Translations under genes and position numbers: made by a program
Shown here: piece after piece, positions 5,362-28,252 of the stretch
Layout of the letters: each line of letters begins with the position of its first letter
Numbering within the stretch: position 1 is the first letter of the stretch
Notes under the pieces: generated by a model
Seen by the model: the letters and a program-made list of their open reading frames with translations, nothing else
What the model was told of the DNA's origin: nothing
Databases searched by the model: none
Source of the DNA: Bacteroidales bacterium
GTDB lineage: Bacteria > Bacteroidota > Bacteroidia > Bacteroidales > UBA932
Length of the DNA stretch: 51,943 nt
Reading direction: 5' to 3'
Assembly (NCBI GenBank): GCA_017479265.1
Contig: JAFVCK010000034.1
Coordinates: 1 to 51,943, forward strand

Positions 5362-8181
5362 ATGGTAAGAAACTGCAAGCATATTGCGTGGATGGCGGTG
5401 CTTTCGGCACTGCTGCTTTTTATTGCAGTTCCCCTCGGCGCGCAGGAGCGCAAGGGCATAATACGGGGCCGGGTGTTCGAGAATTTCCTCACGCGGGACT
5501 CCTCCAAGTATGAAGTCCCGCTGCAGAAAGTTAGGATTGTAGTCACGCAGGGCGGCGACAGCACTGTAACGAGGACTGACGGAATGGGCGTATTTTATCT
5601 AAGCAAGCTCGCAATCGGGGAAGCCCATCTGAAATTCTCTTCAAAAGGCTATTACGACCAGCACATAGTCCTTGATGTCCAGGAAGACGAGAGCCTTCTG
5701 TATGTCGAAATGTTCCGCAAGCCCGAATCGCTTTCCGGAGCCCGTGTCGTAGCCGTGGTCCCGCCGATGACCCATCGCAAGGATACGATAATCTACAATG
5801 CGGCGGCAGTCTCCCTGAATGAAGGAGAAAATGCCATTGAAATACTTCGTCAGATGCCCGGAGTGGAAATCCGGGATGGCAAAATATACGTAGGCGGCCA
5901 GCAGGTCAAGCGCACCTATGTCAACGGCAGGCTGATATACGGCGACAATGCCTCCAAGCCCCTGACGGCCATAGTAGCAGAAGATGTCACCAACATAAAG
6001 ACATACGAGGAACTCTCAGTCGAGGACAGGCTAAAAGGCAATAAGAACGGCAAGAAGGACAGGGTGCTGGACGTAACTACCAAAGATCCTGTCTTCAGCG
6101 CCTTCGACGGCCATATCCTCGCCAGCGGCGGAGCCGATGCTTCACGTAGTTCGGAAGGCCGCATCCAGCCCCGCTATCAGGGAGCTTTCTCTGGAAGCCT
6201 CTTCTCCGAACAGCTGCTTGCATCGCTGAAATTCAACGCCAACAACATAGGCCGCTCGGACAACGCCCTGCAGAGCCTGAACCAGCCGTACGGGGCTCTG
6301 CACAGCAATAACGACAAGCTGCTGGCGGAGCTGTCATTCAGCAAGTTCTGGGGAGACCGCCTTCTGGGGAGCTCCGTAAACGCCGGATACAGCTTCACAA
6401 GAAACCATAGCCGCACGTTCAGCAATTCACTGCAAGATTATTTCGCCACAGGGTCGAGCCCGGCCCGCCAGTACGCCGACACGTCCAGAGCAGTCACCAA
6501 GGACGGCACCCACAATATCTATGCGGCCCTGAATCTCAATACTTCCAAAGCCGGAAGGTTTCTCATTTCCACCAAACTCGGCATCAGGCGTTCCCTCTCG
6601 GATTCCTACTCTGGGACAAGGTCTGTGCAGGGAGAGGATATTGCGCGGACCGCCCAGCGTAGCGACGGCTCCATGCGGGGCATTGCCTGGGACGGCTCCT
6701 TCTATTGGTCCAAAAACCATACGGAAAGCGGCTGGGCTCCATACGTGAGAGTGGCTGCAAATGTAGGCGGCTCCTCCGAAGGCCGGGCCGTAGTCGATAC
6801 CCTCGCGAGTTCATTCCATCGCAGGAAACTTTCCATAGAGGGCGGCGGACGCAACTGGTCCGTGACAGCGGATGCCGGAGTCAGTAAACAGCTGGTAAAC
6901 AATGACTCCGTCACTTTCGTAATCATGCCGGGGCTTGCCGCGGAAGTCTCTTCCTCACGCAGTAAATCCCTGTCCATGGACCTTATTGACCCGGACAATC
7001 CCGTTACCGATGCCGTAAATACATACGACTATTCCAACGACCTGGCCGGCATCAACTTAGGGCTGCCGATAGAATACACTTCCAAAGCCGGGTCGCTGTT
7101 TCTTTCCCTCTCCCCGGGATTCCGCCGCTCCGCCAACCTCGAAAGGCTGCCCGGCGAAGACGGATTTGCCAAGCTGTTCTTCACTCCGGACGCACAGATA
7201 AGTTTTCACAACAGGGAAATATATGCCGGATATCATTTGAATACCCGGATTCCTGCCCTGGAACAGCTGCGTGAGCGCATAGATGACAGGAACCCTATGT
7301 TCATCCAAGCCGGCAATTCCGCCCTCAAGGCTTCCCATACACACACCGTTTCAGTATCCTGGCACCACTCCATAGACAACAAGTACCTTCCTTCCAACGT
7401 GAATGTCAAACTGAATTCCTCCCTGGCAGACAATCCCGTGGTTTCCAACAGCATATATTACTCCACTCCTACCCACATCACCGGGTGGGGAGGATACGAC
7501 ATACAGCCCGGAACAACCTTTACTACATACGAGAATGCTTCCGGTCCCTCCTTCAACATGCAGTTGTCCATGTCGTATGTCATCCGTCTCCAGAAAATCA
7601 AGTCCAATGTGCATCTTGATGCCGGACTCGATTGGGCCTCGTCGCCGATGTATGTATCCGGAACGATGATGCGCAGCCGCGACCTGGTACCGGATGCCGG
7701 TGTTTCATACAATTACCGGGGCAAGGTCTTCAACGCCAGGCTTTCATACGGCGTATCATATCTTCGGGGGACCAACAATGCAGGCCAGGTGATTACCACG
7801 GCCTTGAAGAACAGTTATTCAGCTTCTTTGGGCCTCAATATCGCAAAGAAGTTCTTTGTCAATACCGAGACCTCAGGCACCCTCAACCACTATCTTTCCG
7901 GGGGACTCAAGGATGTCAACATATTCACCGTCAACGCCTGCGCCGGAGTAAGGCTTCTCAAAGGCCGCCTCATCATTTCGGCCTCCGCCAGCGATTTGCT
8001 CTCCAGAAGCAACTCATATTCGGTCAACAATTCCGCCGACCATCGCCTGCAGACATGGACACCATCCTTCGGAAGGTACTACATGCTCAACGTTGCCTTC
8101 CGTCTGAACAAGACTTCCGCCAAGTCTTCACCTTTGGATATGTTTGGAAGGTCCGACTATTTCAACAGTGCCGGAAGGTAG
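5362..8181 (+). CDS. Outer-membrane beta-barrel protein with carboxypeptidase-like domain (TonB-receptor-like)
   Basis: 939 residues. A signal peptide (LLLFIAVPLGAQ, about residues 16-27) is followed by a carboxypeptidase-regulatory-like beta-sandwich (about 30-120: IIRGRVF...VRIVVTQGGDSTVTRTDGMG). Next comes a plug-like segment (about 135-235) with DTIIYNAAAVSLNEGENAIE, ILRQMPGVEIRDGKIYVGGQ and RTYVNGR. The remainder is beta-rich barrel ending in an aromatic-rich stretch (FGRYYMLNVAFRLN). This arrangement is known from the family of TonB-dependent-receptor-like proteins that have no SusD partner. Its substrate cannot be told from the sequence. It stands alone: the palindromic repeat lies upstream and a separate promoter region lies downstream before SusC. 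The internal Met at residue 11 (5392) is an alternative start that still keeps the hydrophobic core of the signal. Confidence 0.85.
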   Translation: MVRNCKHIAWMAVLSALLLFIAVPLGAQERKGIIRGRVFENFLTRDSSKYEVPLQKVRIVVTQGGDSTVTRTDGMGVFYLSKLAIGEAHLKFSSKGYYDQHIVLDVQEDESLLYVEMFRKPESLSGARVVAVVPPMTHRKDTIIYNAAAVSLNEGENAIEILRQMPGVEIRDGKIYVGGQQVKRTYVNGRLIYGDNASKPLTAIVAEDVTNIKTYEELSVEDRLKGNKNGKKDRVLDVTTKDPVFSAFDGHILASGGADASRSSEGRIQPRYQGAFSGSLFSEQLLASLKFNANNIGRSDNALQSLNQPYGALHSNNDKLLAELSFSKFWGDRLLGSSVNAGYSFTRNHSRTFSNSLQDYFATGSSPARQYADTSRAVTKDGTHNIYAALNLNTSKAGRFLISTKLGIRRSLSDSYSGTRSVQGEDIARTAQRSDGSMRGIAWDGSFYWSKNHTESGWAPYVRVAANVGGSSEGRAVVDTLASSFHRRKLSIEGGGRNWSVTADAGVSKQLVNNDSVTFVIMPGLAAEVSSSRSKSLSMDLIDPDNPVTDAVNTYDYSNDLAGINLGLPIEYTSKAGSLFLSLSPGFRRSANLERLPGEDGFAKLFFTPDAQISFHNREIYAGYHLNTRIPALEQLRERIDDRNPMFIQAGNSALKASHTHTVSVSWHHSIDNKYLPSNVNVKLNSSLADNPVVSNSIYYSTPTHITGWGGYDIQPGTTFTTYENASGPSFNMQLSMSYVIRLQKIKSNVHLDAGLDWASSPMYVSGTMMRSRDLVPDAGVSYNYRGKVFNARLSYGVSYLRGTNNAGQVITTALKNSYSASLGLNIAKKFFVNTETSGTLNHYLSGGLKDVNIFTVNACAGVRLLKGRLIISASASDLLSRSNSYSVNNSADHRLQTWTPSFGRYYMLNVAFRLNKTSAKSSPLDMFGRSDYFNSAGR

Positions 8182-8238: not shown

Positions 8239-8332
8239 ACGGACTAATGCTTTGTGTTTAACTTGCAATTTTTAAGCAGGTTGGCGTTTAAAATGGCAGA
8301 TTGTTGCAATTTGATGGCGAAATTTTGAATTG

Positions 8333-11300
8333 ATGAAACATTTGGGTGATAAATTGTTAAGATGGCTGAGCGTCCTGCTTATAATAGGGGGGGGTGGAGT
8401 CGCCATATCCCTGCAGGCGCAGGATAAGAAGACCAAGACGGTTCAAGGAACGGTAATGGATGAGGGAGGAGAGCCTCTTCCCGGCGCATCGGTGTATTCC
8501 AAGAAAGACAAAGTGGGCGTGTCCGCCGACAAGGACGGGCATTTCGTCATAATTGCTCCTTCCGGCGCTACCCTTACCGTGGAATTCATGGGCTATGAGT
8601 CCCAGGTCATAGAAGTATCTTCCTACAAGGAAGGACGCGGCCTCCGGATATTCCTCAAGGAAGACAAGACCAACACCCTGGACGAAGTGGTTGTGACCGG
8701 TATCTTCACCCGCAACAAGGAGTCCTTTACCGGAGCGGTGCAGGCCATAACCGGAGAACAGCTCAAGAGGGTGGCCAACAGCAATGTGGTCGAGTCCCTC
8801 AAGAACATGGACCCTTCGCTTCTCATCCTAGACAACCTGGAGGCCGGCTCCAACCCCAATGCAATGGCTTCCATGCAGATACGAGGCGCATCTACCATAG
8901 GTCTCGAGACTACTACCCTCAAGAGCGGCTTCCTCAACAAGTCCAACCAGCCCCTTTTCATACTGGACGGCTTCGAGACCTCCCTTGAGCGCATCACCGA
9001 CATGGATATGAACCGTATCCAGAGCATCACGATTCTCAAGGATGCCTCGGCCAAGGCCATCTATGGAGCCAAGGGCTCCAACGGAGTCATAGTCATAGAG
9101 ACCAAGGCCCTGTCCGCCGAGAAGTCCGCCGTCACATACAACGGAAACGTCACCATAGAGGCTCCGGACCTTAGCAGTTACAACCTCTGCAATGCCCTTG
9201 AAAAGCTCGAGATTGAGCGCCGTGAAGGCTATTACTCCTCGAATGACAGTTATTCTACAGCCGCGCTTCAGCAGCTCTACTGGCAGAGGCTCAAGAGGGC
9301 CAGGGAAGGAGAGAGCACATACTGGCTGTCCAAGCCCCTTCGCCTTGGCATAGGCCATAAACATTCCCTTGCCGTGGAGCTTGGCACCAGAGACCTCAAG
9401 GCCATAGCGACCTTCTCCTACAACGATGTGCAGGGTGCCATGAAAGGCTCTTACCGCGATGTCATTTCCGGCGATGTCAACCTCGCCTACAGGAGGTCCA
9501 AATGGACATTCCGCAACATCCTGAGCGTTTCCTACAAGAAGAGCGAGGATTCCCCGTGGGGCGATTTCAGCGAATATGCCTCCCTCAATCCTTACTATAC
9601 GCCTTACGACGAGGAGGGCAACCTCAAGAAAATCCTTGATTCCGGTTCCGTGGGCGAAGGCATGTTCAAGGCTGTTACCCCGAGGGTAAGCAACCCTATG
9701 TGGAATGCCAACATAGGCACCAAATATTCCAGCGAATACCTGGCCGTTTCGGACAATTTCTATGTTGAGTACCAGCTGCTCAAGGCCCTCAAGCTGGTGG
9801 CTCGTTTCGGACTGGACACCCAGCGCTCGCAAAGCGATGATTTCCGCCCTGCTGACCATACGGAGTTCATACTGACTTCGGCCGACACCGACCTTATGCT
9901 GCGAAGAGGAGACTATACCCAGTCCAACGGACGTTACACCACCTTCTCCGGGGACGTTTACGCCCAGTTCAACCATAAGTTCGCAGACAAGCACGATGTC
10001 TTCGCCACGGCCCAGTACAATCTCTCGCACACTTCCTATTCCGAGGTTGTGAACTATGCCGAGGGCTTCCCGAACAGCAATATGAAGAATATAGTGTTCG
10101 CCCGCCAGTATGCCATGGATTCCACTCCTACCGGAGCGGAGGGATTGAACCGCAACCTGGGAGCCCTGCTCACTGCGGGATATTCCTACGACAACCGCTA
10201 TATGATGGATGCCACCATAAAGGGCAGTGCCACCTCCGTCTTCGGCACCAAGAACCACTGGGGCATATTCTGGAGCGCCGGCGTGGCCTGGAACATCCAC
10301 AACGAGCACGCCGTCAAGGATGCCCTTCCGTGGCTGACCGAGCTCAAGCTGCGCGCCAGCCTCGGTTCTTCGGGCAACCAGAACTTCTCCACCAACGTGG
10401 CCCTCCCGGTATATACCTACTACAACTCCAACTACTACAACGGATTCACCGGAGCCAGCCTTTCCAACATGGAGAATCCAAACCTGGGCTGGGAGGACAA
10501 GATGGAATACAACATAGGCCTTGATTTCCGTACCAAGCGCATCAACGCCGTCATCGACGCATATATAGCAGACACCCGCAACCTGGTGTTCTCAAGGAGC
10601 ATACTTCCTTCGACCGGCTTCGCCTCCGTCAACGACAACATGGGAAAGGTCCGCAACAAGGGCATAGAGGCTTCCCTGAGCTACACCGTGTGGCAGAGGA
10701 AGAGTTCATACCTGAGCCTGTTTGCCAAGATAGCGGTCAATGACAACAGGGTGCTGGAAATCTCCGATGCCCTGAGGGCCTACAATGAGCAGCAGGCCGC
10801 CATGGCGCTGGAGAACCATTCCACCGCTCCCGTGGTCCAGTACTACGACGGCATGCCCCTGCACTCTATCTGGGCCGTCCGTTCCCTTGGCATCAACGCC
10901 TCCGACGGAAAGGAGATTTATCTGGACCGGAACGGCGACATTACCGATACATGGTCGGCCTCCGACCTTTTCAACTGCGGCTCTTCGGACCCTGTCTATA
11001 ATGGCAACTTCGGCATCAACGGAGAGCTCTGGGGCGTGGGTCTGAGCCTCGTATTCACCTACTATGGAGGAGGTTACCTCTACAATACCACCTTGAGGGA
11101 CAAGGTGGAGACAGCCTCTCTGGAGAACAACGTCGACAGGCGTATCCTCGCGGGACGCTGGTCCAGGGACCTCGAAGGCCGTACCGCCTTGTACCGCATG
11201 CCTGACTCTTCATCCTCTTCCATGGCTACCAGCCGTTTCGTGCAGAAGAACAACGTGATGAACATATCTTCCGCATCCCTGTACTATGAGTTCCCCACCA

Positions 11301-11446
11301 GGCTGGTGCGCAAGATTCATCTGGACAGGTTGAGGCTCTCCTTCTTCACGAACGACCTCTATACCTTCTCTTCAATTACCGTGGAGCGCGGAACTTCCTA
11401 TCCCTATGCAAGGAGTTTCTCCTTTTCACTCAATCTGACATTCTAA
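8333..11446 (+). CDS. SusC/RagA-family TonB-dependent outer-membrane transporter
   Basis: 1037 residues from ATG 8333; a TTG three bases upstream only adds one Met. The order is: signal peptide ending near SLQAQ; carboxypeptidase-like domain (TVQGTVMDEGGEPLPGASVY ... VEFMGYESQ, about 35-105); TonB-box/plug start LDEVVVTG at 116-123; plug with MQIRGASTIGLETTTL, PLFILDG and SAKAIYGAKGSNGVIVIETK; then a 22-strand-type barrel. It imports a bulky nutrient across the outer membrane, powered by TonB, with the SusD lipoprotein encoded 4 bases downstream acting as lid. Neighbouring protease genes argue for peptides rather than glycans. Codons 19-21 of the signal peptide contain a run of eight G (8387-8394); losing or gaining one G brings an in-frame stop within about 25 codons, so expression may be phase-variable. 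Confidence 0.95.
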   Translation: MKHLGDKLLRWLSVLLIIGGGGVAISLQAQDKKTKTVQGTVMDEGGEPLPGASVYSKKDKVGVSADKDGHFVIIAPSGATLTVEFMGYESQVIEVSSYKEGRGLRIFLKEDKTNTLDEVVVTGIFTRNKESFTGAVQAITGEQLKRVANSNVVESLKNMDPSLLILDNLEAGSNPNAMASMQIRGASTIGLETTTLKSGFLNKSNQPLFILDGFETSLERITDMDMNRIQSITILKDASAKAIYGAKGSNGVIVIETKALSAEKSAVTYNGNVTIEAPDLSSYNLCNALEKLEIERREGYYSSNDSYSTAALQQLYWQRLKRAREGESTYWLSKPLRLGIGHKHSLAVELGTRDLKAIATFSYNDVQGAMKGSYRDVISGDVNLAYRRSKWTFRNILSVSYKKSEDSPWGDFSEYASLNPYYTPYDEEGNLKKILDSGSVGEGMFKAVTPRVSNPMWNANIGTKYSSEYLAVSDNFYVEYQLLKALKLVARFGLDTQRSQSDDFRPADHTEFILTSADTDLMLRRGDYTQSNGRYTTFSGDVYAQFNHKFADKHDVFATAQYNLSHTSYSEVVNYAEGFPNSNMKNIVFARQYAMDSTPTGAEGLNRNLGALLTAGYSYDNRYMMDATIKGSATSVFGTKNHWGIFWSAGVAWNIHNEHAVKDALPWLTELKLRASLGSSGNQNFSTNVALPVYTYYNSNYYNGFTGASLSNMENPNLGWEDKMEYNIGLDFRTKRINAVIDAYIADTRNLVFSRSILPSTGFASVNDNMGKVRNKGIEASLSYTVWQRKSSYLSLFAKIAVNDNRVLEISDALRAYNEQQAAMALENHSTAPVVQYYDGMPLHSIWAVRSLGINASDGKEIYLDRNGDITDTWSASDLFNCGSSDPVYNGNFGINGELWGVGLSLVFTYYGGGYLYNTTLRDKVETASLENNVDRRILAGRWSRDLEGRTALYRMPDSSSSSMATSRFVQKNNVMNISSASLYYEFPTRLVRKIHLDRLRLSFFTNDLYTFSSITVERGTSYPYARSFSFSLNLTF
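8387..8394 (+). repeat. Homopolymeric G8 tract in the SusC signal-peptide codons
   Basis: Eight consecutive G encode part of the Gly-Gly-Gly-Gly run after LLII in the signal peptide. With seven G the frame reaches TAA about 21 codons later; with nine G it reaches TAA about 13 codons later. Such tracts are classic sites of slipped-strand phase variation. No other G or C run of this length was noticed in the window. Confidence 0.85.
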
Positions 11447-11450
11447 GGCT

Positions 11451-13001
11451 ATGAGAACAAAAAGCATAATATGTATTCTTGCCGCCTCGCTCACCCTGGC
11501 CTCCTGCAACGACTGGCTGAATGTCACCTCTTCCAACCAGGTGTCCGATGCCCGCCTGTTCTCTACCAGGACCGGTTTCCTTGAGGCCCTTTCAGGCATT
11601 TATATCGACATGGCTTCGACGGACAATTACGGAATGAACGACACATGGTATGCAATGGACCTGTGCTGCATGCCGTATGCTTCGACCTCCAACAACTATT
11701 ATACTGACCTTCAGGAACATCGCTATACCAATTCCCGTATCTATCCTATAATCCACAGCATCTGGCAGGGCGGATACAATGTCATAGCGAATGTCAACAA
11801 GACCCTTGCGGAGCTCGAGGCCCATCCCGAGATTGTCACGGACGAGTTGGAGCGCAACCTTATCCACGGCGAGCTCCTCGGCATCAGGGCATATATGCAC
11901 TTTGACCTCATGAAGATGTTCGGAGCCTCTTCGTGGACAGGCGAGAAGGCCTCGCTGCTTACTATACCCTATGTCCGCACATACAGCAAGGACCCCGAGG
12001 TCCAGCGCTCATATACCGCCACCCTGGAGCTGCTTCACGAAGATATTGCCGCCGCTCTCGTACTGCTTGAAAAGGACCCTGTCCGCGGGGAAGTCAGCAG
12101 CGATTTCCAGGAAGGCCCCAATGTGGACGGATATTGGAACAACAGGAACAAGCATCTGAACTATATAGCGCTCAAGGCCCTCCTGGCAAGGGTTCTTGTG
12201 TGGGAAGACAAATGGGACGAGGCCGCCGTGGCGGCGCAGGAAGTGATTGACGAGGCTTTTGCCTGCTCCCTGGTGTCGTGGTTCGATGCCGAGGAAATGG
12301 TTAAGAAGACCTCCAGCGACCTTGTGGACTGGACCATGTCCACGGAGCATATTTTCTGCCTTGAGTCCACCGACATGTACAATACCGTCACCATCAACTT
12401 TGCCGCAGGCAGCACTTCTACCGATGCTTCCATCAAGTTTGATACTTCCGATGTTGACGGATGGCTCTTTCCCAAGGCGCTCATAATTTTAGGCGACCTT
12501 TCTCCTGTCGAGGATGTGCGCGGCCCCGCCCTTATGCTCAGTTACACCAACACGGGCTATGCCATAAACAAGTATTACACATCCACTTCCTATCCTACAG
12601 AGTATCGTAACAAGATTCCGATGATACGCCTTCCCGAAATGTATTACATAATCGCGGAAAAGGCCCTCAGGGATGATGATGCAAAGGCTTTCTATGATGC
12701 CCTTAATGCCGTGCGCTCCCACAGGGGAATTTCCGCCCCCTTGGAGGAATCTGCATATTCGGATGATTCTGTCCTGTCCCCTTCGGAAATGCGCTGGCAG
12801 GGTGGTTCGTATCAATTATATGCTGAATATTTAAAAGAATTTGTGGGAGAAGGGCAGGCCTTCTACTTTATCAAGCGCTTCATGCCTTATTCTATGGAGG
12901 TCAAGCACACTAGCGTAAGTTACATCTACACTGATTGGCGGACCCTTACATTCCCTTATCCTGTTGAGGAAACGACCTACGGGAGGGTCCAGGAATTATG
13001 A
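11451..13001 (+). CDS. SusD/RagB-family surface lipoprotein
   Basis: 516 residues with a type II signal and lipobox (LTLASC, Cys at about residue 19) followed by NDWLNVTSSNQVSDARLFST, the standard start of SusD proteins. The N-terminal TPR-like region and the SusD signatures near the end (RLPEMYYIIAEKAL, ALNAVRSHRGI) are present. It caps the SusC channel and captures the ligand at the cell surface. It follows SusC by 4 bases and its stop overlaps the next start (ATGA), so the genes are translationally coupled. Confidence 0.95.
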   Translation: MRTKSIICILAASLTLASCNDWLNVTSSNQVSDARLFSTRTGFLEALSGIYIDMASTDNYGMNDTWYAMDLCCMPYASTSNNYYTDLQEHRYTNSRIYPIIHSIWQGGYNVIANVNKTLAELEAHPEIVTDELERNLIHGELLGIRAYMHFDLMKMFGASSWTGEKASLLTIPYVRTYSKDPEVQRSYTATLELLHEDIAAALVLLEKDPVRGEVSSDFQEGPNVDGYWNNRNKHLNYIALKALLARVLVWEDKWDEAAVAAQEVIDEAFACSLVSWFDAEEMVKKTSSDLVDWTMSTEHIFCLESTDMYNTVTINFAAGSTSTDASIKFDTSDVDGWLFPKALIILGDLSPVEDVRGPALMLSYTNTGYAINKYYTSTSYPTEYRNKIPMIRLPEMYYIIAEKALRDDDAKAFYDALNAVRSHRGISAPLEESAYSDDSVLSPSEMRWQGGSYQLYAEYLKEFVGEGQAFYFIKRFMPYSMEVKHTSVSYIYTDWRTLTFPYPVEETTYGRVQEL

Positions 13002-13804
13002 TTATGAGAAAGTTAACCGTCATATTGCGTATAGTCTGCGTCTGTTTTGCTCTGACGGCGGGTCTCTCCTGCAAAAAGAGCGAGATACAGGGCTATGACA
13101 TCAAACAGTCCGCAGTGAACTTCTGGACTGTGACCAACGAGTATTCCCTCAGGGGACTGTCGGAGCCTGTCCATGAACTGAAAGTAGAGGTGAAGCTCAT
13201 AGGTGTCCCGGCATCCTACGACAGGCCCTTCGGCCTTGTGGTCAAGGATTCTACTGCCGTTCAGGGCAGGGATTTCCGCATCGTCGAGGCCATGATTCCC
13301 GCAGGGGAACTCTCAGGCTATGTCAAGCTGGAGGTCAATGCCTTGCAGGAAGGCGTGGAGAGACTCTCCACCGTGCTTACCATAGACCCGGGCGAGCATT
13401 TCCGCACCGGTTTCCCTTCACTTCAGAGGGCTGTGGTCACATGGACCGATTCTTATGCCCGTCCACCTGTCCAGGTCTGGCAGTACTGGTACAATTTCTT
13501 CTGCCACGGATACAGCAGGGATTATCACAAGCTGCTCCTTGAACTGTTCGGCGACGACATTGAACTGACGACAAACAAAAAATTGTATGCCGAGGACGGC
13601 TTTATTTACAAGGATCCTACATGGTGGTACACGGCCAACCGCCGTATCCGCGAGGAAGTCTCCGCATACGACATGGCCCATCCGGGCGAACCCATGCGTC
13701 ACAGCGCGGATTATGAATCATATAGGGGTTATACCGTGGCATACGGCGAGGGCACCAAGCCTGCCACTCCGCCCACCATTTCAGAAACTCTTGTAAACCT
13801 GTAG
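12998..13804 (+). CDS. DUF4843-like lipoprotein of the SusCD locus
   Basis: 268 residues; the ATG overlaps the SusD stop, with a second in-frame ATG two codons on (13004, MRKLTVILRI) as an equally good start. A lipobox (AGLSC) is followed by KKSEIQGYD. The rest is beta-rich with family-like segments (VKLIGVPASYDRPFGLVVKD, VQGRDFRIVEAMIPAGE, DPGEHFRTGF). The size, the lipobox and the place directly after SusD fit the DUF4843 lipoproteins that accompany peptide-type SusCD systems. The family assignment is from memory of sequence pattern and context. In the well-studied Bacteroides thetaiotaomicron peptide importer, two extra lipoproteins are part of the SusCD complex; this may be the equivalent of one. 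Confidence 0.75.
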   Translation: MIMRKLTVILRIVCVCFALTAGLSCKKSEIQGYDIKQSAVNFWTVTNEYSLRGLSEPVHELKVEVKLIGVPASYDRPFGLVVKDSTAVQGRDFRIVEAMIPAGELSGYVKLEVNALQEGVERLSTVLTIDPGEHFRTGFPSLQRAVVTWTDSYARPPVQVWQYWYNFFCHGYSRDYHKLLLELFGDDIELTTNKKLYAEDGFIYKDPTWWYTANRRIREEVSAYDMAHPGEPMRHSADYESYRGYTVAYGEGTKPATPPTISETLVNL

Positions 13805-13806
13805 AT

Positions 13807-15351
13807 ATGAGCAAATTATCATATAAACTGTCCTCCATTGCTGTGCTGGCCCTCATGCTGAGTGGTTGTTATTCCGACCTCAGCACCGACGCCGGTATCG
13901 AGCTGCCTGACATAGTGGTGGAAGGAGTGGAGCCGGAGATAAAGATTCTGTTCGGAGAGACACTCTCCCTGCAGGCCGATGCATACGTGGAAGGGACTCA
14001 GGATAAGCCGCTTACGTATCTATGGGAGATGGATCTCACGCCAGGCAAGGAGAGTGACAGGATTGTACTCGGTGAGGAAGCCTCCGTATCATACCGCATC
14101 GCATGTTCCCCTTCGGACCAGCCATACGCCCTGACCCTTACCGTCACCGACCCCGAATCGGGGCTTGGCAAGGTGGTCTCTTCACTTGTATATGTCTCCT
14201 CCACCCTTGGAGAAGGCCTTCTCGTAGCTCACACCAGGGACGGCGGGGCCCATTCGGAGCTTGACCTTGTTTCCAGCAAGAGCATAACCTACGGCAGCGA
14301 AGCGGAAGAGCCGGTATATACCCGCGACATTTATCCCCTGGCCAATGACGGTCCGCTTGAGGGCAGGGTCAATGCCATGACAAGCGCACTTATAACCAAT
14401 GGAGCCGTCTATAACGAGCCTCTGATACTCATCGGCACAGACGAGCATTTCATGGCCCTGGAGACTACCACCTTCAAGAAGTACAGGGAGGACATGAACC
14501 TCTTCGGAGACTTCCGCGGCGATACTTTCAAGACTACTTCGGTGTTTACCTACAGCGGCATCATGTGCGGTGCGGTAGTCAATGACGTGCTATATCTCAA
14601 CATAGGCCACACCAACAATGTGTTCAACAAGGCCGCATATACCAAGGTGCCTGCCAATGTGTTCAATTCCAGGAACATAGGCTACAACAAGCCCGGCGGA
14701 GACATAGTCTTCTTCAACGAGGAGGAGGGCAATTTCTACTTCATGCACGGAATGTTCTCCGGATATGCAGCCTTCGCCGTGGTGTCCGAGAATTTCGGGG
14801 TGAACCTCGCCGGCTCCCAGGCCATTGCCGCCGGTTGCGGAAAGACGGCCACCTCGGCATTCTTCCTCAAGGCTCCGGACGGAGACTACTACCTTTTCTA
14901 CATGCACCCCAACGAGCCCCTGTATTCCCACTACAAGGTTGAAGGCGCAGGACTGGACGAAGCCGTGTCCTATGCTTTCTGCGACAATGCCGACATATTC
15001 TATTATGCCACCCCGGACAAGATTTATTCAGTGCTGATGACAGGCGGTACGGCCACTGTGACGGCCCTCAGCTGGACTCCGGACTCTCCCGGCGAGAAGA
15101 TAACCTACATCAAGCAGTACATGCAGGCGTGGTACGGCACCCACCAGTACACCCTGTCCTCCGACAGTTATCCTTTTGTCCTGGATACCAACCGTTTGCA
15201 GATAATGATTACGACATACAACGAGACTACCGGCGAGGGCAAGATTTACCTGCGTCCCTTCAATGTGTCCACCGGACGCTTCACCTTCAAGGATAACGGC
15301 ACTTTCGGAGGTTTCGGACAGATAACCGCCATAGGCACGACATTCAGATAA
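13807..15351 (+). CDS. PKD-like family surface lipoprotein
   Basis: 514 residues, 2 bases after the previous stop. The lipobox LMLSGC (Cys at about residue 21) is followed by YSDLSTDAGIELPDIVVEG. Residues of about 40-125 form a PKD/Ig-like beta-sandwich (ILFGETLSLQADAY, LTYLWEMDLTPGK, YALTLTVTDPESGLG). The rest (about 130-510) is beta-rich with repeating short strands (LLVAHTRDGG, LILIGTDEHF, LYLNIGHTNN, FYFMHGMFSG, YYLFYMHPNE), suggesting a propeller-like ligand-binding fold. No enzyme motif is visible. It is probably an accessory surface-binding lipoprotein of the SusCD complex. Confidence 0.75.
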   Translation: MSKLSYKLSSIAVLALMLSGCYSDLSTDAGIELPDIVVEGVEPEIKILFGETLSLQADAYVEGTQDKPLTYLWEMDLTPGKESDRIVLGEEASVSYRIACSPSDQPYALTLTVTDPESGLGKVVSSLVYVSSTLGEGLLVAHTRDGGAHSELDLVSSKSITYGSEAEEPVYTRDIYPLANDGPLEGRVNAMTSALITNGAVYNEPLILIGTDEHFMALETTTFKKYREDMNLFGDFRGDTFKTTSVFTYSGIMCGAVVNDVLYLNIGHTNNVFNKAAYTKVPANVFNSRNIGYNKPGGDIVFFNEEEGNFYFMHGMFSGYAAFAVVSENFGVNLAGSQAIAAGCGKTATSAFFLKAPDGDYYLFYMHPNEPLYSHYKVEGAGLDEAVSYAFCDNADIFYYATPDKIYSVLMTGGTATVTALSWTPDSPGEKITYIKQYMQAWYGTHQYTLSSDSYPFVLDTNRLQIMITTYNETTGEGKIYLRPFNVSTGRFTFKDNGTFGGFGQITAIGTTFR

Positions 15352-15357
15352 CAGATT

Positions 15358-17895
15358 ATGAAGAAAAAACTTATATACATCCTGCTTTCATTGACGACCC
15401 TCCTGTGGGCCGCCGATGCCAATGCATGGGAGCCGCTTGTGCGCCGCAAGGCTAAAGCCAAGGCGGAGGCTGCTAAGAATGACAGCCTGAAGGCCAGGAC
15501 ACCTTACCAAAAGCTGTTCGACAAGGAGCAGAAGTCCTCAAAGGGCCTCTTCGACGTTCATCTGAAAAAGGGCAAGGTCTATCTGGAAATTCCCGATTCC
15601 CTGCTCGGAAGAGCCTTTGCCTCAGGTACTTCCGTCAAGTCCATAAGCAACAATTCCATCTCGGTGGTGGGCCAGAAGAATCTCTCGGACCTGTCCTTCT
15701 TCACAATAGAAAAGGTTGACAGCGTCCTGCTGCTGCGCAGCCTGTCCTTCGACTTCACCTCCGACGAGAAGAACATACTGGAGGCCCTGTCCGGCAGCCG
15801 GACGGGAGCCATAGTGGCTCGTTTCCCCTCCAAGGCCAAGTCTCCTTCGGGGAATCTGGTGGTGGATGTGACAGACTTCCTGCTTTCCGACCGCGACGAG
15901 TTCAACCCCTTCAAGATGGGCTACGGCGGCAGGTACAAGTCCAATTTCAAGAAGGACATGTCCTATATCGTGGATGCCAAGTCCTTCGAGGACAACGTGT
16001 CCATAACAGTCAGCCGTTCCTATTCCTACTCCGTGGAAGGCTCTTCGAGAGTGAAGAACAGGCCTTTCACCGCGCAGACCACCACTTCCATACTGATGCT
16101 TCCCGACTCTATCTACCATCCCAGGATGGCTGACCCGAGAATAGGATATTTCTTCACCCCGAGGACTCAGATGGGGGATATGGCTTCGACTACCAGGACC
16201 ATATACTTCGCCAACCGCTGGAGGCTGGAGCCTTCCGATACGGCGGCATACAGAAGGGGAGAGAAGGTGCGCCCCGTAAAGCCCATCACCTTCTATATCG
16301 ACAACGATTTCCCCGAGTGGTGGAAGTCATATATCTTCGATGCGGTGATGCAGTGGAACGAGCCTTTTGAGGAGATTGGCTTCAAGGACGCGGTGCAGGC
16401 CCTGCCTTTCCCCGATGACGACCCTGCTTTCGACCCGGACAACATCCGCTACAGTTGCATTAGGTACGCTCCCGTGGGTATACAGAACGCCATGGGCCCT
16501 TCCTGGACCGACCCACGCAGCGGCGAGATTATAAACGCTTCAGTGTATGTGTATCACGATGTTATCAAGCTTCTGACAGTGTGGATGTTCGTCCAGACTG
16601 CCCAGGCTGACGAGGCGGTAAGGGCTGTGGACCCTCCCAAGGAACTGCTCGGCGATGCCCTCATGTATGTAATCAAGCATGAGGTGGGCCATACCCTTGG
16701 CCTTATGCACAATATGAGCGCCTCTACGGTCATTCCGGTGGAGAGCCTCAGGGACCCCGGTTTCACCCGCGAGTACGGTACCACCACTTCCATAATGGAC
16801 TACGCCCGTTTCAACTATGTGGCCCAGCCGGGCGACAAGGAAAGGGGAGTGAGCCTGACCCCGCCCCGCTTCGGAAAATATGACAGATATGCCATCAGGT
16901 GGGGCTACACCCCTGTTTTCGATGCTGAGGATTTCGCTGCAGAAAGCGAGATTACAACGCGCTGGATAACCGATTCCTTAGCCGCCAGGCCTTATTGCCG
17001 CTACGGAAAGCAGCAACTCTCTCCCATAATGATGGACCCTTCCTGCCAGACCGAGGACCTTGGCGACGACGTGTTCGCGGCTACTACATACGGAATATCC
17101 AACCTCAAGTATATAATGTCCCGTTTCATGGACTGGATAAGCGACGCCGACGACCCCGAGTACAAGTTCAGGACCGATATATACATGGGCCTCGTGAACC
17201 AGTACCTGAGGTATTCCGGACACATGCTGGCCAATGTCGAGGGCCTCTACAAGAGGGAGGTCATCGCAGGTGACGGCTTCAAGCGCTTCGCCAATATCCC
17301 GAGGGACCGTCAGGAAAAGGCTCTGGAATTTGCCTTCAACATGATACAGGATACCGACTGGATGGAAGACAAGGCCGTCCTGGGCCGTCTGCCCATTGCC
17401 GGCTCCCCCGTGTATCAGGTGCGCAAGGCCATAACCGAGAGCCTGATGCTGTCTCCCTTCAAGGCCCTCATGGCCGACGGAGTGGATACCTTCGAGTTCT
17501 CTCCCGACGAGGTCCTTTCCGCTCTGGAAGAAAAGATATGGAAGCCGGTGCGCTCCCGCAAGGCCCTTACTTCCTGGGACAGGGAGATGCAGAGGATATA
17601 TGTGGAATCCATAATGGCCAACGTAGGCTTTGTCAATCCCAATGCCAAGGCTGCTCTCACTGAGGAACTGCCTGATACTGAAGGCTATATGGGCAAGATT
17701 ACATACGACGAGGTCAGCGGATTCGAGTGGGAGCCTCGTGCCATGCTCAACGGCGGCACCTATACCCAGGGCACTGCATACGCCGCCCTTTCAAAGGTGT
17801 ACAAGCTCATGGAGCAGGCCTATCCTTCGGCAAACGACCTTGACAAGGGACATTACAAACTCCTTATGGGAATAATAGATTACGGAAGGAAATGA
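15358..17895 (+). CDS. Zinc-dependent metalloprotease (metzincin motif; DUF5117/DUF4953-type), active-looking
   Basis: 845 residues. A cleavable signal peptide (LLWAADANA) without lipobox cysteine is followed by a Lys/Ala-rich linker. The N-terminal domain (about 50-270: GLFDVHLKKGKVYLEIPDSL, LLLRSLSFDF) is the DUF5117/5118 type. The catalytic domain contains HEVGHTLGLMHN, with zinc ligands H441, H445 and H451 and base E442 (HExxHxxGxxH), and a Met-turn SIMDYA with M480: a complete metzincin active site. A helical C-terminal domain follows (about 600-845). It is exported to the periplasm or, with this neighbourhood, perhaps the cell surface; the likely job is to cut proteins into peptides for the adjacent SusCD importer. 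The stop overlaps the next start (ATGA). Cellular substrates are unknown. Confidence 0.88.
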   Translation: MKKKLIYILLSLTTLLWAADANAWEPLVRRKAKAKAEAAKNDSLKARTPYQKLFDKEQKSSKGLFDVHLKKGKVYLEIPDSLLGRAFASGTSVKSISNNSISVVGQKNLSDLSFFTIEKVDSVLLLRSLSFDFTSDEKNILEALSGSRTGAIVARFPSKAKSPSGNLVVDVTDFLLSDRDEFNPFKMGYGGRYKSNFKKDMSYIVDAKSFEDNVSITVSRSYSYSVEGSSRVKNRPFTAQTTTSILMLPDSIYHPRMADPRIGYFFTPRTQMGDMASTTRTIYFANRWRLEPSDTAAYRRGEKVRPVKPITFYIDNDFPEWWKSYIFDAVMQWNEPFEEIGFKDAVQALPFPDDDPAFDPDNIRYSCIRYAPVGIQNAMGPSWTDPRSGEIINASVYVYHDVIKLLTVWMFVQTAQADEAVRAVDPPKELLGDALMYVIKHEVGHTLGLMHNMSASTVIPVESLRDPGFTREYGTTTSIMDYARFNYVAQPGDKERGVSLTPPRFGKYDRYAIRWGYTPVFDAEDFAAESEITTRWITDSLAARPYCRYGKQQLSPIMMDPSCQTEDLGDDVFAATTYGISNLKYIMSRFMDWISDADDPEYKFRTDIYMGLVNQYLRYSGHMLANVEGLYKREVIAGDGFKRFANIPRDRQEKALEFAFNMIQDTDWMEDKAVLGRLPIAGSPVYQVRKAITESLMLSPFKALMADGVDTFEFSPDEVLSALEEKIWKPVRSRKALTSWDREMQRIYVESIMANVGFVNPNAKAALTEELPDTEGYMGKITYDEVSGFEWEPRAMLNGGTYTQGTAYAALSKVYKLMEQAYPSANDLDKGHYKLLMGIIDYGRK

Positions 17896-20348
17896 GACGA
17901 CTTGCATTGATATTTACCTGTATCCTTCTGGCAGTGCAGTCAGTCCAGGCTCCGCTGTATTCCGCTCCGAGGAAAAAGAAGGCACAGCCCGTGAAAGAAG
18001 CCCCGAAGAAGACCCCTTACGAGAAGTTCGTCTCCAAGAAGAGCGTCAAGTCGGCAGGCAACGTGATGCGGCTCTACCGCGACGGCAAGTCTTTCTTCCT
18101 TGAACTGCCCGATTCCCTTGACGGCAAGACGCTTGTGATGAGCACGAAGCTTCGCAGCAGCAGTTCAGCGTGGATTTCTCCAGGCACGGAGGTTTCTTCC
18201 AACAAGGCCTTCAAGATAGCCCGCACCGATTCCCTCTTGCTGCTATTGTCTCCTTCACTGGTCCCTGCAACCGGTGATTCCTTGATAGGCAAGGCCATCG
18301 ACCGTTCTTTCGGACTGCCTACGGAATATTCTTTCCCCATAAAGTACAGGGGCAAGGACTCTTCATCGGTCGTCGTTAATGTCAGCAAGCTCTTCGACCC
18401 TTCCAACAAGGATGTAATTAACCTAAAGGGCGTGCAGCTGGATGCCCATGCGTCCTTCTATCGCGGCACTGTCCAGAGCGAGTTCACCACCGACAAGGAG
18501 CTCGTGGCCTTCGGCAGCAGCATCGGAGCCGTCCGCAGCCTGACTTTCAGCGTGGCCCCCGCGTATGGCACGGCCTATCTCGACGAAGAGTCCATGCGCT
18601 TGACAGGCGAATTTATCACTACGCTCAACCTGCTGGATGACAAGGGTTTCAGCCCCAGAATCGCCGACGGCCGCATAGGCACGGGCACGGTGACGCGTTC
18701 CGTGTTCACCACCTCCGGCGGAGTCAAGAACGAGAAGATTGCTACCCGTTGGAAAGTGGATGAGGGCGAGAAGATAACGGTCTATGTGGACACCCTTTTC
18801 CCCGCCGCCTGGCAGCAGGCCATACGCAAGGGGCTCCTCGCCTGGAACACCGCCTTCGAGCAGATAGGCCTCGGCAAGGTCATAGACGTTCGCCCTTACG
18901 CTTCATATATAGGCTTCACCCCTGAAAATCCTTTCATCAGCACTGTCCGCGCCGATTTGCACGGACAGGGCGAGTCCATAGGCGCTTCCCTTCTGAGCAA
19001 TCCCTGCACCGGCGAGATTGTCTCCACCACCATTACCGTCCCCGGCGGAATAATCAATTCCATAAGGGAGGCGGGCATATTCTGCAACAGCGACGTGGAC
19101 AGCCGCTTTGCCTCCTATGATATCTCGGAAGATGCTGTGGCAGAGGTGCTTAAGGCCAAGATTATGGGTATTTTCGGCCGTGTGCTCGGGCTCTCTCCCA
19201 ACATGGCCGGTTCGTATGCCTATTCTCCCGCCCAGCTGCGCAGTTCTTCCTTTACCAAGGTACACGGCATAACCTCTTCTGTGACCGACGACGTGACTTT
19301 CAACCTGCTGGCCCGTCCGGGGGACAAAGAAAAGGGAGTCGTCACGATAGTTGACAAGATAGGGGACTATGACAAGTTCGCCATATCGTGGCTGTACAAG
19401 GTGTTCCCCGAAGGCTCAGACGAGAAGGCTCTTCTGAGGGCCATGCTCGACGAGTCTGCCGGCCGCCAGGAATATCTCTATTGTCCTGTGCGTCAGGGGA
19501 ATCCCGACCCCCGGGGAATTGCCGGAGACCTTGGCAACGACCCCTTCGAGCTGTACTCCACCATCCGCACCAGGCTTGCTTTCGTGGCCGCCAACGCTAC
19601 GGGCTGGTTCAATGTCCCTTCGCTGGAGAATACTTCCTTCAGGGAACTCTTCGTGGAACGCCTCTGGATGTACTTCCTGTCCTCTTCAAGGGCCCTTTCG
19701 AGCCAGATTGGAGGCATCTGTTTCCAGGATATGTCCAAGGGTGTGAAGGCTACGGCCCTTCCCGTGGATGTCCAGAAGCGCACAATGAAAGTGCTGTATT
19801 CCTCGCTTAACGACATGTCATGGCTGGATTCCAACCAGGACCTCCTTCAGTGGTCGGGAGCCAACAGGGCCTATTCCCTTATGACCAGGATCAACTGCTA
19901 TCTTCAGTCGGGCCTTGTCAGCAGGATAGACTGGGTGGCCGCCTCCGTTGCGCTGGCAGGCAACGAGTATTCCCTTTCGGAGTATCTTGACGACCTTACG
20001 GCTCTTGCCGGGGATAATATACGCTCGGGCAAAATGCCTGTAGGTGACGACCTTATGTTCGGAAGCTACATATCCATAGGCCTTCTGCGTCGCGCCCCGC
20101 TCGCCGCGCGGCGTTATGCCGAAAGTGCCCACAAGGCCGGGCTTCAGGAAGAGGAAGCCCTCACCATGCCCTTTACCGGGATACCTGCCGCCGCCCTTTC
20201 GGACATGCAGGCCGAGTGCTTCTCCCAGCTGCTGAAAATACAGAAGATTCTCTCCTCCGGCCATGCCGCCGCTTCCGGGGATGACAGATACAGGATAGAA
20301 TACCTGCAGGGCATAGTTGATGAGGCCCTGGACGAAAAGAAACGATAA
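17892..20348 (+). CDS. Paralogue of the preceding metalloprotease with active site lost (pseudoprotease)
   Basis: 818 residues, clearly homologous along its length to the previous gene: the same signal peptide plus Lys-rich linker, FFLELPDSLDGKTL, RIADGRIGTGTVTRSVFTT, a WNTAFEQIG segment and LLARPGDKEKGVV. Where the active copy has HEVGHTLGLMHN this protein has GIFGRVLGLSPN (residues 426-437): H441, E442, H445 and H451 are replaced by G426, I427, R430 and P436, while the structural LGL and final Asn remain. The Met-turn Met is Thr (T465 in SVTDD). It therefore cannot bind the catalytic zinc. The reading frame is full length without frameshift, so it seems to be selected as a binding, inhibitory or scaffold partner of the active enzyme. 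It is translationally coupled to it by a 4-base overlap. Confidence 0.88.
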   Translation: MRRLALIFTCILLAVQSVQAPLYSAPRKKKAQPVKEAPKKTPYEKFVSKKSVKSAGNVMRLYRDGKSFFLELPDSLDGKTLVMSTKLRSSSSAWISPGTEVSSNKAFKIARTDSLLLLLSPSLVPATGDSLIGKAIDRSFGLPTEYSFPIKYRGKDSSSVVVNVSKLFDPSNKDVINLKGVQLDAHASFYRGTVQSEFTTDKELVAFGSSIGAVRSLTFSVAPAYGTAYLDEESMRLTGEFITTLNLLDDKGFSPRIADGRIGTGTVTRSVFTTSGGVKNEKIATRWKVDEGEKITVYVDTLFPAAWQQAIRKGLLAWNTAFEQIGLGKVIDVRPYASYIGFTPENPFISTVRADLHGQGESIGASLLSNPCTGEIVSTTITVPGGIINSIREAGIFCNSDVDSRFASYDISEDAVAEVLKAKIMGIFGRVLGLSPNMAGSYAYSPAQLRSSSFTKVHGITSSVTDDVTFNLLARPGDKEKGVVTIVDKIGDYDKFAISWLYKVFPEGSDEKALLRAMLDESAGRQEYLYCPVRQGNPDPRGIAGDLGNDPFELYSTIRTRLAFVAANATGWFNVPSLENTSFRELFVERLWMYFLSSSRALSSQIGGICFQDMSKGVKATALPVDVQKRTMKVLYSSLNDMSWLDSNQDLLQWSGANRAYSLMTRINCYLQSGLVSRIDWVAASVALAGNEYSLSEYLDDLTALAGDNIRSGKMPVGDDLMFGSYISIGLLRRAPLAARRYAESAHKAGLQEEEALTMPFTGIPAAALSDMQAECFSQLLKIQKILSSGHAAASGDDRYRIEYLQGIVDEALDEKKR

Positions 20349-20363
20349 TTTTTATTAAATATC

Positions 20364-22490
20364 ATGCTTATGAAAAAGATTCAATTGATTGTTGCCTCAG
20401 GGCTGACCCTGATGGCTCTTGCCGGTTGCCAAAGCACCGTCAAGGAAATTGAAAAAGAGGTCGAGAAGCCTGTGGGACTGAGCATCGACGCTACAGTCAT
20501 AGGCGTAGGCGCCGCCGGTGGCGAGAAGGTAATTTCCTTCACCGCCAACGAGGCATGGACCCTTTCGACCGCAGACAACTGGATTACTCCCGACAAGACT
20601 TCGGGAGAGGCCGGTAAGGCTGAGGTCAAACTCACCGTCGCTCCTTTGGAGGGCGATGCCCGCACCGGAAAGGTCACTATCAAGGCCGGTTCCACTACTA
20701 CCGAGTTCACCGTTGAGCAGAGCCCCGTTGCAGAATTCACAAACGGGAACGGGATTAACATTTCCGCCGCTGCCCAGGACATCATGATTCCTTTCTCCAC
20801 CAATGTGGCTGATTACACTGTCACCATTACCGAGAACACCCCTTGGCTTACCGTGAGCTCGACCAAGGCTGCCATCGACGGTATAATCACTATTCATGCT
20901 GCCGCCAACAACACCCTGAGCCCCAGGATAGGCGGATTTACCATTGCGGCCGCCGGATATACTTCAGCCTACGTCGTAGTCCAGGATTCCGAGTTCATTC
21001 CTGCATCTGAGGCTTCAGCCGTATGGCTGGGCTCCGCACAGGATCCTTACAACGAGGAGGCAGGGGCGTACAACAACTTCTACCAGTTCGCCATCACTCT
21101 CGGCATCGCTGACGGAGATACCGTTGTCCTTGCCATCAACACCGAAGAGCCCGAAGATACCCAGGTTGTCCCCGAAGGCGAATACGAGGTCGATGCCGCC
21201 GCTATTTACAAGCCCGGCACCTTCTCCGTCAAGTCCACAGGCGGCAACGAGAAGTACTACACCACTCTCTTTGTCGGCGATAAGGAAATTGCCATTATCG
21301 ACGGTGAAATCACCATCGAAAAGACAGATGGCGGGTATGCAATCTCAGCCCTCCTTATGGATGCTCTCGAGGAAATCCACAGCTACAGTTATGAGGGCGA
21401 ACTCATTGTCACTGACGAGTCTCTCAGCGCCGAGAATACCGACTTGCAGTATATAGGCGACTATAGCACCCACTTCGCCAACATGGTCAACGATGAATGG
21501 AAGTTCACCTTCTACGCTTCCCAGGGTGTTGCTGCTGGTGATTCATATCCTGTGCGCGGTTTCAATGTCACTGTCTTTACCGAGAAGGGCGTGACAGTTC
21601 CCGAAGGCGAGTTCAAGTACGAAGCCCCGGCAGATGATCCCACCTCTACGTATGCACATGGTAACATGCTTGTCAACCCAGGCACCTTCTACAATCTTTC
21701 CTTCTATGCCGCGTATGAGCATGTGCCCGGAGTCTATGTCAGCAATGAGCTTAAAGAAGGCACCACGCCTAAATTCTCCATCGAGCCCCAGGATGACGGC
21801 CGCTATACCGTCAAGGTCTCTGCTACCATAGTACAGACCGTCGAGGTGGACGAAGTTGACGAAGATGGAAATACGGTGTATGACGATGACTGGAATGCTG
21901 TCGTGATTTCACTTGACACCTACGAGATTCCCTTCGAGCAGACATATATCAACGTGACCCTCGCCGAGCCTGTCCCGAACAGCTATTACACTGTGTTTGA
22001 AGATGGCGACTACACCGTCAAGGGCGAAATCATGAATTCCTACCTGATGCCTCGTTGGGGTGGCAAGGCCTTCAATGATGACTGCCATCTCTTCGTGTTC
22101 GGATTCCTGGCAATAGACGGAAACTGGAACGTATATCTGGCCGTCAATATCGAGCAGGAATACGAATTTGAGAATAATTTCCCTCCTACAGCTGCCAACC
22201 CCCGTTACTGCGGTACTCCTTTCCAGTACGGTCATTACGAGTTCTCAGCTACCGCTGCCAAGAACGCTCTGCTGCCTGTCAAGGGATGGCACAGGATTAT
22301 CAACGCATACTCCGGCACCACCTTCCAGGTTGTCGGCGGCTCCATCGATATAGATAACACCAGCATCACCTACGACCTCGTGGGCAAGAATGCCGCCGGG
22401 AAGACCATTACCTTCAAGGGTACCCACGCTTCCACGTTCTATTACATGATGAATACATCTACCACGACTTACACTCTCGACGAGATTTAG
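20364..22490 (+). CDS. BACON-domain surface lipoprotein
   Basis: 708 residues. The lipobox is LMALAGC (Cys at about residue 22), then a charged stalk (STVKEIEKEVEKP). Two BACON-type beta domains follow: about 35-125 (FTANEAWTLSTADNWITPDK ... VTIKAGSTTTEFTVEQSP) and about 135-215 (TITENTPWLTVSSTKA). The remaining ~480 residues hold beta-rich modules with a recurring pattern of short sequence such as VPEGEYEVDA / VPEGEFKYEA, IAIIDGEITIEKTDGGYAIS and an acidic patch (VDEVDEDGNTVYDDDW). No catalytic motif is visible. BACON domains are thought to bind carbohydrate or protein ligands. A second ATG (20370, MKKIQL) is an alternative start. It is the last gene of the SusCD/protease locus, 15 AT-rich bases after the pseudoprotease. 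Confidence 0.85.
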   Translation: MLMKKIQLIVASGLTLMALAGCQSTVKEIEKEVEKPVGLSIDATVIGVGAAGGEKVISFTANEAWTLSTADNWITPDKTSGEAGKAEVKLTVAPLEGDARTGKVTIKAGSTTTEFTVEQSPVAEFTNGNGINISAAAQDIMIPFSTNVADYTVTITENTPWLTVSSTKAAIDGIITIHAAANNTLSPRIGGFTIAAAGYTSAYVVVQDSEFIPASEASAVWLGSAQDPYNEEAGAYNNFYQFAITLGIADGDTVVLAINTEEPEDTQVVPEGEYEVDAAAIYKPGTFSVKSTGGNEKYYTTLFVGDKEIAIIDGEITIEKTDGGYAISALLMDALEEIHSYSYEGELIVTDESLSAENTDLQYIGDYSTHFANMVNDEWKFTFYASQGVAAGDSYPVRGFNVTVFTEKGVTVPEGEFKYEAPADDPTSTYAHGNMLVNPGTFYNLSFYAAYEHVPGVYVSNELKEGTTPKFSIEPQDDGRYTVKVSATIVQTVEVDEVDEDGNTVYDDDWNAVVISLDTYEIPFEQTYINVTLAEPVPNSYYTVFEDGDYTVKGEIMNSYLMPRWGGKAFNDDCHLFVFGFLAIDGNWNVYLAVNIEQEYEFENNFPPTAANPRYCGTPFQYGHYEFSATAAKNALLPVKGWHRIINAYSGTTFQVVGGSIDIDNTSITYDLVGKNAAGKTITFKGTHASTFYYMMNTSTTTYTLDEI

Positions 22491-27411: not shown

Positions 27412-28251
27412 ATGGCAAATGTCGATACACTTCGGGCCACCGCGACCCAGGTCCGCAGGGATATCGTGAGGATGGTGTTCCAGGCCCAGTCCGGCCACCC
27501 CGGAGGCTCCATGAGCAGCGCCGATTTCCTTACAGCCCTGTTTTTCTCCGTAATGGATGCGGACCCCGCCCGCTGGACCCGTGACGGCAAGGAACAGGAC
27601 GTATTCATCCTTTCCGCCGGTCACCTTACTCCGGTTTATTATTCCCTGCTTGCCCGCAAGGGATATTTCCCCCTTGAGGAACTTTCCTCCTTCCGCCGCT
27701 TCGGCTCCCGACTTCAGGGCCATCCTTCAGTGCGCAAGGGCCTTCCCGGCATTACCCAGGCTTCCGGCTCCCTCGGTCAGGGCCTGTCCTGCGCCGCCGG
27801 AATAGCCCTCGGCAAGAAATTGGACGGCGAGAACAAGAAGGTCTATGTCATGTGCGGAGACGGCGAGAGCGAGGAAGGCCAGATCTGGGAAGCCGGCATG
27901 TTTGCCGCCCACCACGGCCTTGACAACCTCGTAGCCATGACGGACTGGAACGGCCAGCAGATTGACGGACAGGTTGCCGATGTAGCCGGAGTAGGCGACC
28001 TCGAGGCCAAGTGGAAGGCTTTCGGATGGAACGTGATAGTGGCCGACGGTCACGACATGAAGGCCATCCTGGATGCTTTCGACAAGGCTTCCAAGGCCAA
28101 GGGCCGTCCCACTATGATACTTTTCCGTACCGACATGGGACATGGAGTCGATTTTATGGCAGGAACACACAAATGGCACGGAAAGGCCCCTTCGGAGCAG
28201 CAGTGCACGGATGCCCTTGCCCAGCTTGAGCAAACTTTGGGAGATTTCTGA
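27412..28251 (+). CDS. Transketolase, N-terminal (TPP-binding) subunit
   Basis: 279 residues corresponding to the first half of a classical transketolase. It includes QSGHPGGSMSSADF, the ILSAGHLTPVYYSLLAR segment, GSLGQGLSCAAGIALGKKLD and the thiamine-diphosphate/Mg motif GDGESEEGQIWEAGMF starting at G149, ending with the DWN of that motif. With the next gene it forms the split enzyme that transfers two-carbon units between sugar phosphates. Split transketolases are common in anaerobes of this phylum. One base separates its stop from the next start. Confidence 0.95.
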   Translation: MANVDTLRATATQVRRDIVRMVFQAQSGHPGGSMSSADFLTALFFSVMDADPARWTRDGKEQDVFILSAGHLTPVYYSLLARKGYFPLEELSSFRRFGSRLQGHPSVRKGLPGITQASGSLGQGLSCAAGIALGKKLDGENKKVYVMCGDGESEEGQIWEAGMFAAHHGLDNLVAMTDWNGQQIDGQVADVAGVGDLEAKWKAFGWNVIVADGHDMKAILDAFDKASKAKGRPTMILFRTDMGHGVDFMAGTHKWHGKAPSEQQCTDALAQLEQTLGDF

Positions 28252-28252
28252 T

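Follow-up and report, generated by a model that had tools for sequence, protein, structure and literature searches.

A metzincin-type protease beside a zinc-dead twin in Bacteroidales uptake operons: putative subunits of one protease

In bacteria of the gut and rumen, a zinc protease is repeatedly found beside a zinc-dead copy that is maintained by selection, often next to a nutrient-uptake cluster. One such pair, A and B, lies in the window, a stretch of 51,943 nucleotides that covers positions 1 to 51,943 of contig JAFVCK010000034.1 from a Bacteroidales bacterium (assembly GCA_017479265.1). Because the inactive twin is under purifying selection, stands constantly beside the active protease and has evolved there repeatedly, the best explanation is that A and B may be two subunits of one protease, as in the pairs of M16B peptidases, with B as a pseudoenzyme subunit. 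We put the probability of this reading at about 0.6. The wider claim, that Bacteroidales evolved a two-subunit metzincin at least three times, with the zinc-less tandem duplicate as a required, M16B-like subunit in nutrient-uptake operons, has a little better than an even chance of being right.

The two genes and their products

A and B are encoded on the forward strand. A (15358..17895; 845 aa) is an intact metzincin-type protease with the domains DUF5118, DUF5117 and DUF4953. Its HExxHxxGxxH zinc motif spans codons H441-H451 (16678..16710), with H441, E442, H445 and H451 in place, and is joined by the Met-turn methionine M480 (16795..16797); these are the sequence marks of a metzincin. B (17892..20348; 818 aa) has the same three domains, and the stop of A and the start of B share the four bases ATGA (17892..17895). 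The zinc ligands and the catalytic glutamate are absent from B, the aligned places in its degenerate zinc helix (19167..19199) being taken by G426, I427, R430 and P436, and T465 (19284..19286) stands at the Met-turn place. These residues and the overlap are as the earlier note had read them from the DNA, and its claim of full-length paralogy is borne out by BLASTP, which aligns A and B at 24% identity over nearly their full length (E 4e-48). A zinc site elsewhere in B, which the note had named as a possible refutation, finds too few ligands: because B has five histidines in all (186, 357, 458, 747 and 791), it has no HExxH.

Both proteins match DUF5118, DUF5117 (PF17148) and DUF4953 ('Met-zincin', PF16313) above the curated Pfam cut-offs. 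Against a cut-off of 24.2 bits for DUF4953, A scores 295.2 and B 159.9 bits, and against 27 bits for DUF5117, they score 130.1 and 67.8 bits, respectively; neither protein matches an M16 family in Pfam. A profile of A compared with PDB sequences matches EcxA at E 7.1e-5 and everything else at E 0.015 or weaker. The metzincin fold is retained in B as judged from its predicted structure, a good model that contains the metzincin core. By a simple pattern, both proteins have a signal peptide without a lipobox. The window's own genome (~89% complete) has no match to DUF5117 or to DUF4953 other than A and B.

Pairs, lone copies and origins of zinc loss

The family was surveyed by a DUF4953 search in 200 genomes of the genus, 83 of them with a match, and in 295 genomes of the order that are at least 90% complete, 60 of them with a match and 54 above the cut-off. 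All matches above 50 bits were fetched together with one extra locus (L151), and eight weaker partial matches were left out; six weak matches (L147 and L240-L244) have no family member in the fetched loci. Fetched loci carry L-numbers, with the suffix _1 or _2 for the first or second member.

Two adjoining members on the same strand occur at 34 loci, including the window. In L057, the first member ends before its zinc site, which leaves 33 readable pairs. One intact and one degenerate member make up 32 of these, so that the active/dead pair does recur in tandem, as the earlier note had proposed to check; L064 (11273-16398) is the sole readable pair with both members intact. Among the 134 scored lone copies, whose partners may in some cases be hidden by contig ends, 133 keep all four zinc-site residues, whereas B has none. 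The one degenerate lone member, L092 (891-3578), has its third zinc His replaced by Leu, with the other ligands and the Met-turn intact. One degenerate member in 32 of 33 readable pairs, set against one in 134 lone copies, exceeds what chance would give. Four further intact lone copies (L100, L106, L218 and L220) are too short or broken for this count, L218 (527-3085) and L220 (4116-6577) each lying in two frames with an in-frame stop flagged for the L218 gene, and the fragments L105, L238 and L239 stop short of the zinc site. In the 34 degenerate copies scored, which take in L057_2 and L092, none of the residues H, E, H and H is retained in 24, one in seven, two in two and three in one. Degeneration is partial in L052_1, which keeps the His-Glu and the Met.

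The two genes of a pair are tightly spaced. Of 33 pairs, 31 have an intergenic gap between -22 and +18 bases, and the value of -160 in the other two comes from the script's use of the first start codon. All 27 members of a group of paired A sequences are paired (support for the exact group is weak, 0.18). A scan of named genomes gave 32 loci labelled Bacteroidales, Bacteroidia, Cryptobacteroides, Alistipes or Rikenellaceae, with many assemblies from rumen or gut by label. Since a broad alignment of the degenerate copies had too much diversity for this purpose, ten close B sequences served as the query, and the scan picks up chiefly the main B type. In 29 of the 32 loci, a degenerate B directly follows a complete intact A, a count that is not independent because many of the genomes are the same as in the main census. 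At the other three loci, contig ends cut A before its zinc site (L160 and L180) or leave no upstream sequence (L166). Among 75 genomes of the phylum, the window genome included, no two matches lie within 5 kb except the window's own pair.

Zinc loss in the paired copy appears to have at least three origins. In a tree of 88 rows built without the zinc columns, one starred group with support 100 takes in 22 degenerate copies, their active partners form two starred groups (20 and 2 rows), and all 44 rows share one fork with support 82. Far from these, L060, L062 and L065 each cluster with the active partners of their own loci. A third group consists of L052, L059 and L064; here the degenerate gene is the first of the two, and L064 still has both copies intact. 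Because L064_1 groups with the degenerate L052_1 and L059_1, L064 may represent the stage that preceded zinc loss. With L092 counted, the label 'degenerate' takes five changes on this tree, four of which are forced by starred branches.

Placing the 15 degenerate rows under test in a single clade is rejected (AU p 8.6e-10), and so are clades that unite the main group with L052/L059 (p 9.6e-12) or with L060/L062/L065 (p 2.8e-5); these tests used a quick tree of 50 rows picked from 150, the groups were named after the earlier tree had been seen, and the program printed a warning of long branches among the degenerate rows. Because a clade of L052_1 and L059_1 without L064_1 is not rejected (p 0.343), three origins are claimed and not four, and L092, a lone copy with one His lost, is left out of the count. 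In a FastTree of the whole set, the main degenerate group does not come out cleanly, and the smallest clade that encloses it has 85 rows. This is probably due to rows and fragments added at fixed alignment length, and the 88-row tree is the one relied on.

Selection on B and its possible roles

B is under purifying selection. By the Nei-Gojobori method, dN/dS among eight close relatives is 0.076-0.189 for B (median 0.134, n=28 comparisons) and 0.081-0.141 for A (median 0.112, n=21 comparisons), values that are rough because dS often approaches 1. Open frames are seen in the degenerate copies, two of the 34 being cut by a contig end, and two genomes share a short form of 633 aa. The earlier note had argued for selection for a non-catalytic role of B and had named a dN/dS near 1 or frequent truncation as signs of decay. 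These checks do not refute it: dN/dS of B is about 0.13, the frames are open, and histidines are too few for a zinc site elsewhere. As the pair also recurs in tandem and the divergences of its two members mirror each other, selection for such a role is well supported.

These dN/dS values and open frames also lead us to reject the view that B is a decaying duplicate, which we hold to be scarcely credible. B does evolve faster than A (mean distance 0.718 vs 0.532), and with dS nearly saturated, dN/dS is 0.269 in the degenerate copies of L060 and L062 and 0.168 in the active partners, while the degenerate copies of L042 and L055 gave no usable value. However, degenerate copies are spread across several families of the order. 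The divergences of A and B mirror each other, in line with the co-evolution that the note had suggested looking for (Mantel r 0.924 over 22 pairs, a value reached in 0 of 5000 permutations, uncorrected for species distance). Mirrored divergence is also expected from the joint inheritance of an operon. Eight positions are specific to paired A, and because they are few and scattered, they give no clear interface signature.

If A and B are subunits of one protease, A would supply the zinc site, and B would bind A, using its retained metzincin core as a platform, and perhaps also help to hold the substrate. Counting against this reading, lone relatives seem to manage without a partner, neither member of the L064 pair is degenerate, and B diverges faster than A. 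B might instead be an inhibitor or a folding guardian that keeps A silent, or aids its folding, until A is in place. It lies directly 3' of A in most pairs and is constant and selected, and excerpts of one article (PMC11248996) offer a precedent of pseudoproteases restraining an active protease in iRhom2 and ADAM17. However, the degenerate gene precedes the active one in L052 and L059, and B is as big as A, a size that an inhibitor would not require. These two points do not decide the matter, and we consider such a role rather unlikely.

Another possibility is that B works on its own in the uptake machinery, as a binding protein or scaffold that does not touch A and is linked to it by the operon only. 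This would fit the several accessory lipoproteins of the operon and the strong divergence of B in the region before the zinc helix. However, because degenerate copies arose three times, always next to an intact one, and full zinc-site loss is seen in 0 of the 134 scored lone copies, a partner of the active copy is favoured; moreover, 28 of 32 degenerate paired copies have no lipobox by the simple pattern, and we regard a separate scaffold as unlikely. Continued catalysis by B, through another metal site or chemistry, might for example involve D401-x-D403-x-R405. Together with Y409, this motif (19092..19118) directly precedes the former zinc helix; its four residues are invariant across the 10 B sequences compared, and D401, R405 and Y409 are unlike the commonest residue of A. 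In a set of 13 pairs, the former active-site region is also the best conserved part of B, with a mean identity of 0.53 in the old zinc helix and 0.61 in the Met-turn against 0.25-0.48 in other mature parts. However, no known hydrolase motif is recognised in B, histidines are few, and the motif was looked at in the main B type only, so that catalysis by B seems very improbable.

The reading of A and B as one two-subunit protease has a model in the two-gene M16B peptidases SPH2681/SPH2682 and TTHA1264/TTHA1265 and in the mitochondrial processing peptidase, which combine an active zinc subunit with a homologous subunit lacking the zinc motif; in excerpts of the two reviews describing them, wherever a bacterial peptidase is paired with a homologue that lacks zinc, the two belong to M16 (PMC12731061, PMC11266112). 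A and B are alike in having two genes, one for an active zinc protein and one for a homologue without the motif. However, the motif is HxxEH in M16B and HExxHxxGxxH in A, and complex formation is proven for M16B but putative for A and B. ADAM-type metzincin pseudopeptidases have also lost the zinc site, and fertilin is a heterodimer, according to excerpts of PMC11266112, but these are animal membrane proteins and not a bacterial tandem pair with an active twin; excerpts of PMC3650047 deal with substituted HExxH sites in general. In the mostly open-licence literature, no paper was found under DUF5117, DUF4953 or DUF5118, nor under PF16313, PF17148, PF17162 or PF16132, DUF4843 is mentioned once in each of two papers, and a tandem active/zinc-dead pair of this kind is absent from the titles and abstract beginnings among the matches listed.

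The M16B fold is unrelated to the metzincin fold. A two-subunit metzincin would be a second, unrelated fold that repeatedly reached an M16B-like arrangement, would suggest that new proteases can generally arise by the silencing of one tandem member, and would give a function to a family for which the searches by Pfam name and accession returned no paper. The three origins and the one pair with both members intact are natural replicates for how a dead subunit becomes needed.

The uptake operon around the pair

The gene order in the window is barrel, SusC, SusD, DUF4843, PKD_2, A, B, BACON and LacI regulator. On the forward strand, an outer-membrane barrel-like protein with a carboxypeptidase-regulatory-like domain (5362..8181; Pfam matches below curated cut-offs) lies 5' of a SusC/RagA-type TonB-dependent transporter (8330..11446), which is followed by a SusD-like lipoprotein (11451..13001), a DUF4843 protein (12998..13804) and a PKD_2 lipoprotein (13807..15351); beyond B, a BACON-domain lipoprotein (20364..22490) ends the conserved string. 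The lipobox pattern is positive for SusD, PKD_2 and BACON and misses the DUF4843 protein, which has a likely lipobox by eye. The string from SusC to BACON, with A and B in it, is present in the window and in 10 of 40 fetched loci, several others ending at contig ends. In a count over the window and 120 loci, SusC or SusD lies no more than 3.5 kb away in 26 of 34 pair loci vs 29 of 86 single loci, with unequal flank lengths; where both flanks are long enough, the figures are 6 of 7 and 6 of 21.

Because A and B have signal peptides without a lipobox and share an operon with SusCD, their most likely site of action would be the periplasm, with polypeptides as substrates brought in by SusCD, systems whose background is covered in excerpts of PMC7782687 and PMC11992087. 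Peptide uptake by the window's SusCD is only a lead from sequence comparison. Its SusC has a match to RagA (E 8.3e-49) and a weaker one to BT_2264 (E 2.9e-18), but its best match among solved structures is the SusC homologue 8aa4 (E 1.8e-69), and a comparison of its SusD with solved structures did not find RagB at E 0.1.

The A-B pair seems to move as a unit. In L046, L161 and L162, of which the first two are apparently one contig, the pair lies 5' of SusC, behind the barrel gene, and not after PKD_2. Just 3' of the LacI regulator, the window has a putative neutral zinc metallopeptidase (PF04228, 23762-24616). Further on, Glucosamine-6-phosphate isomerase-like and PIG-L deacetylase domains share one frame (24676-26610), followed by a second isomerase-like gene, and a transketolase is spread over two genes (27412-29206), one for the thiamine-binding part and the other for the pyrimidine and C-terminal part.
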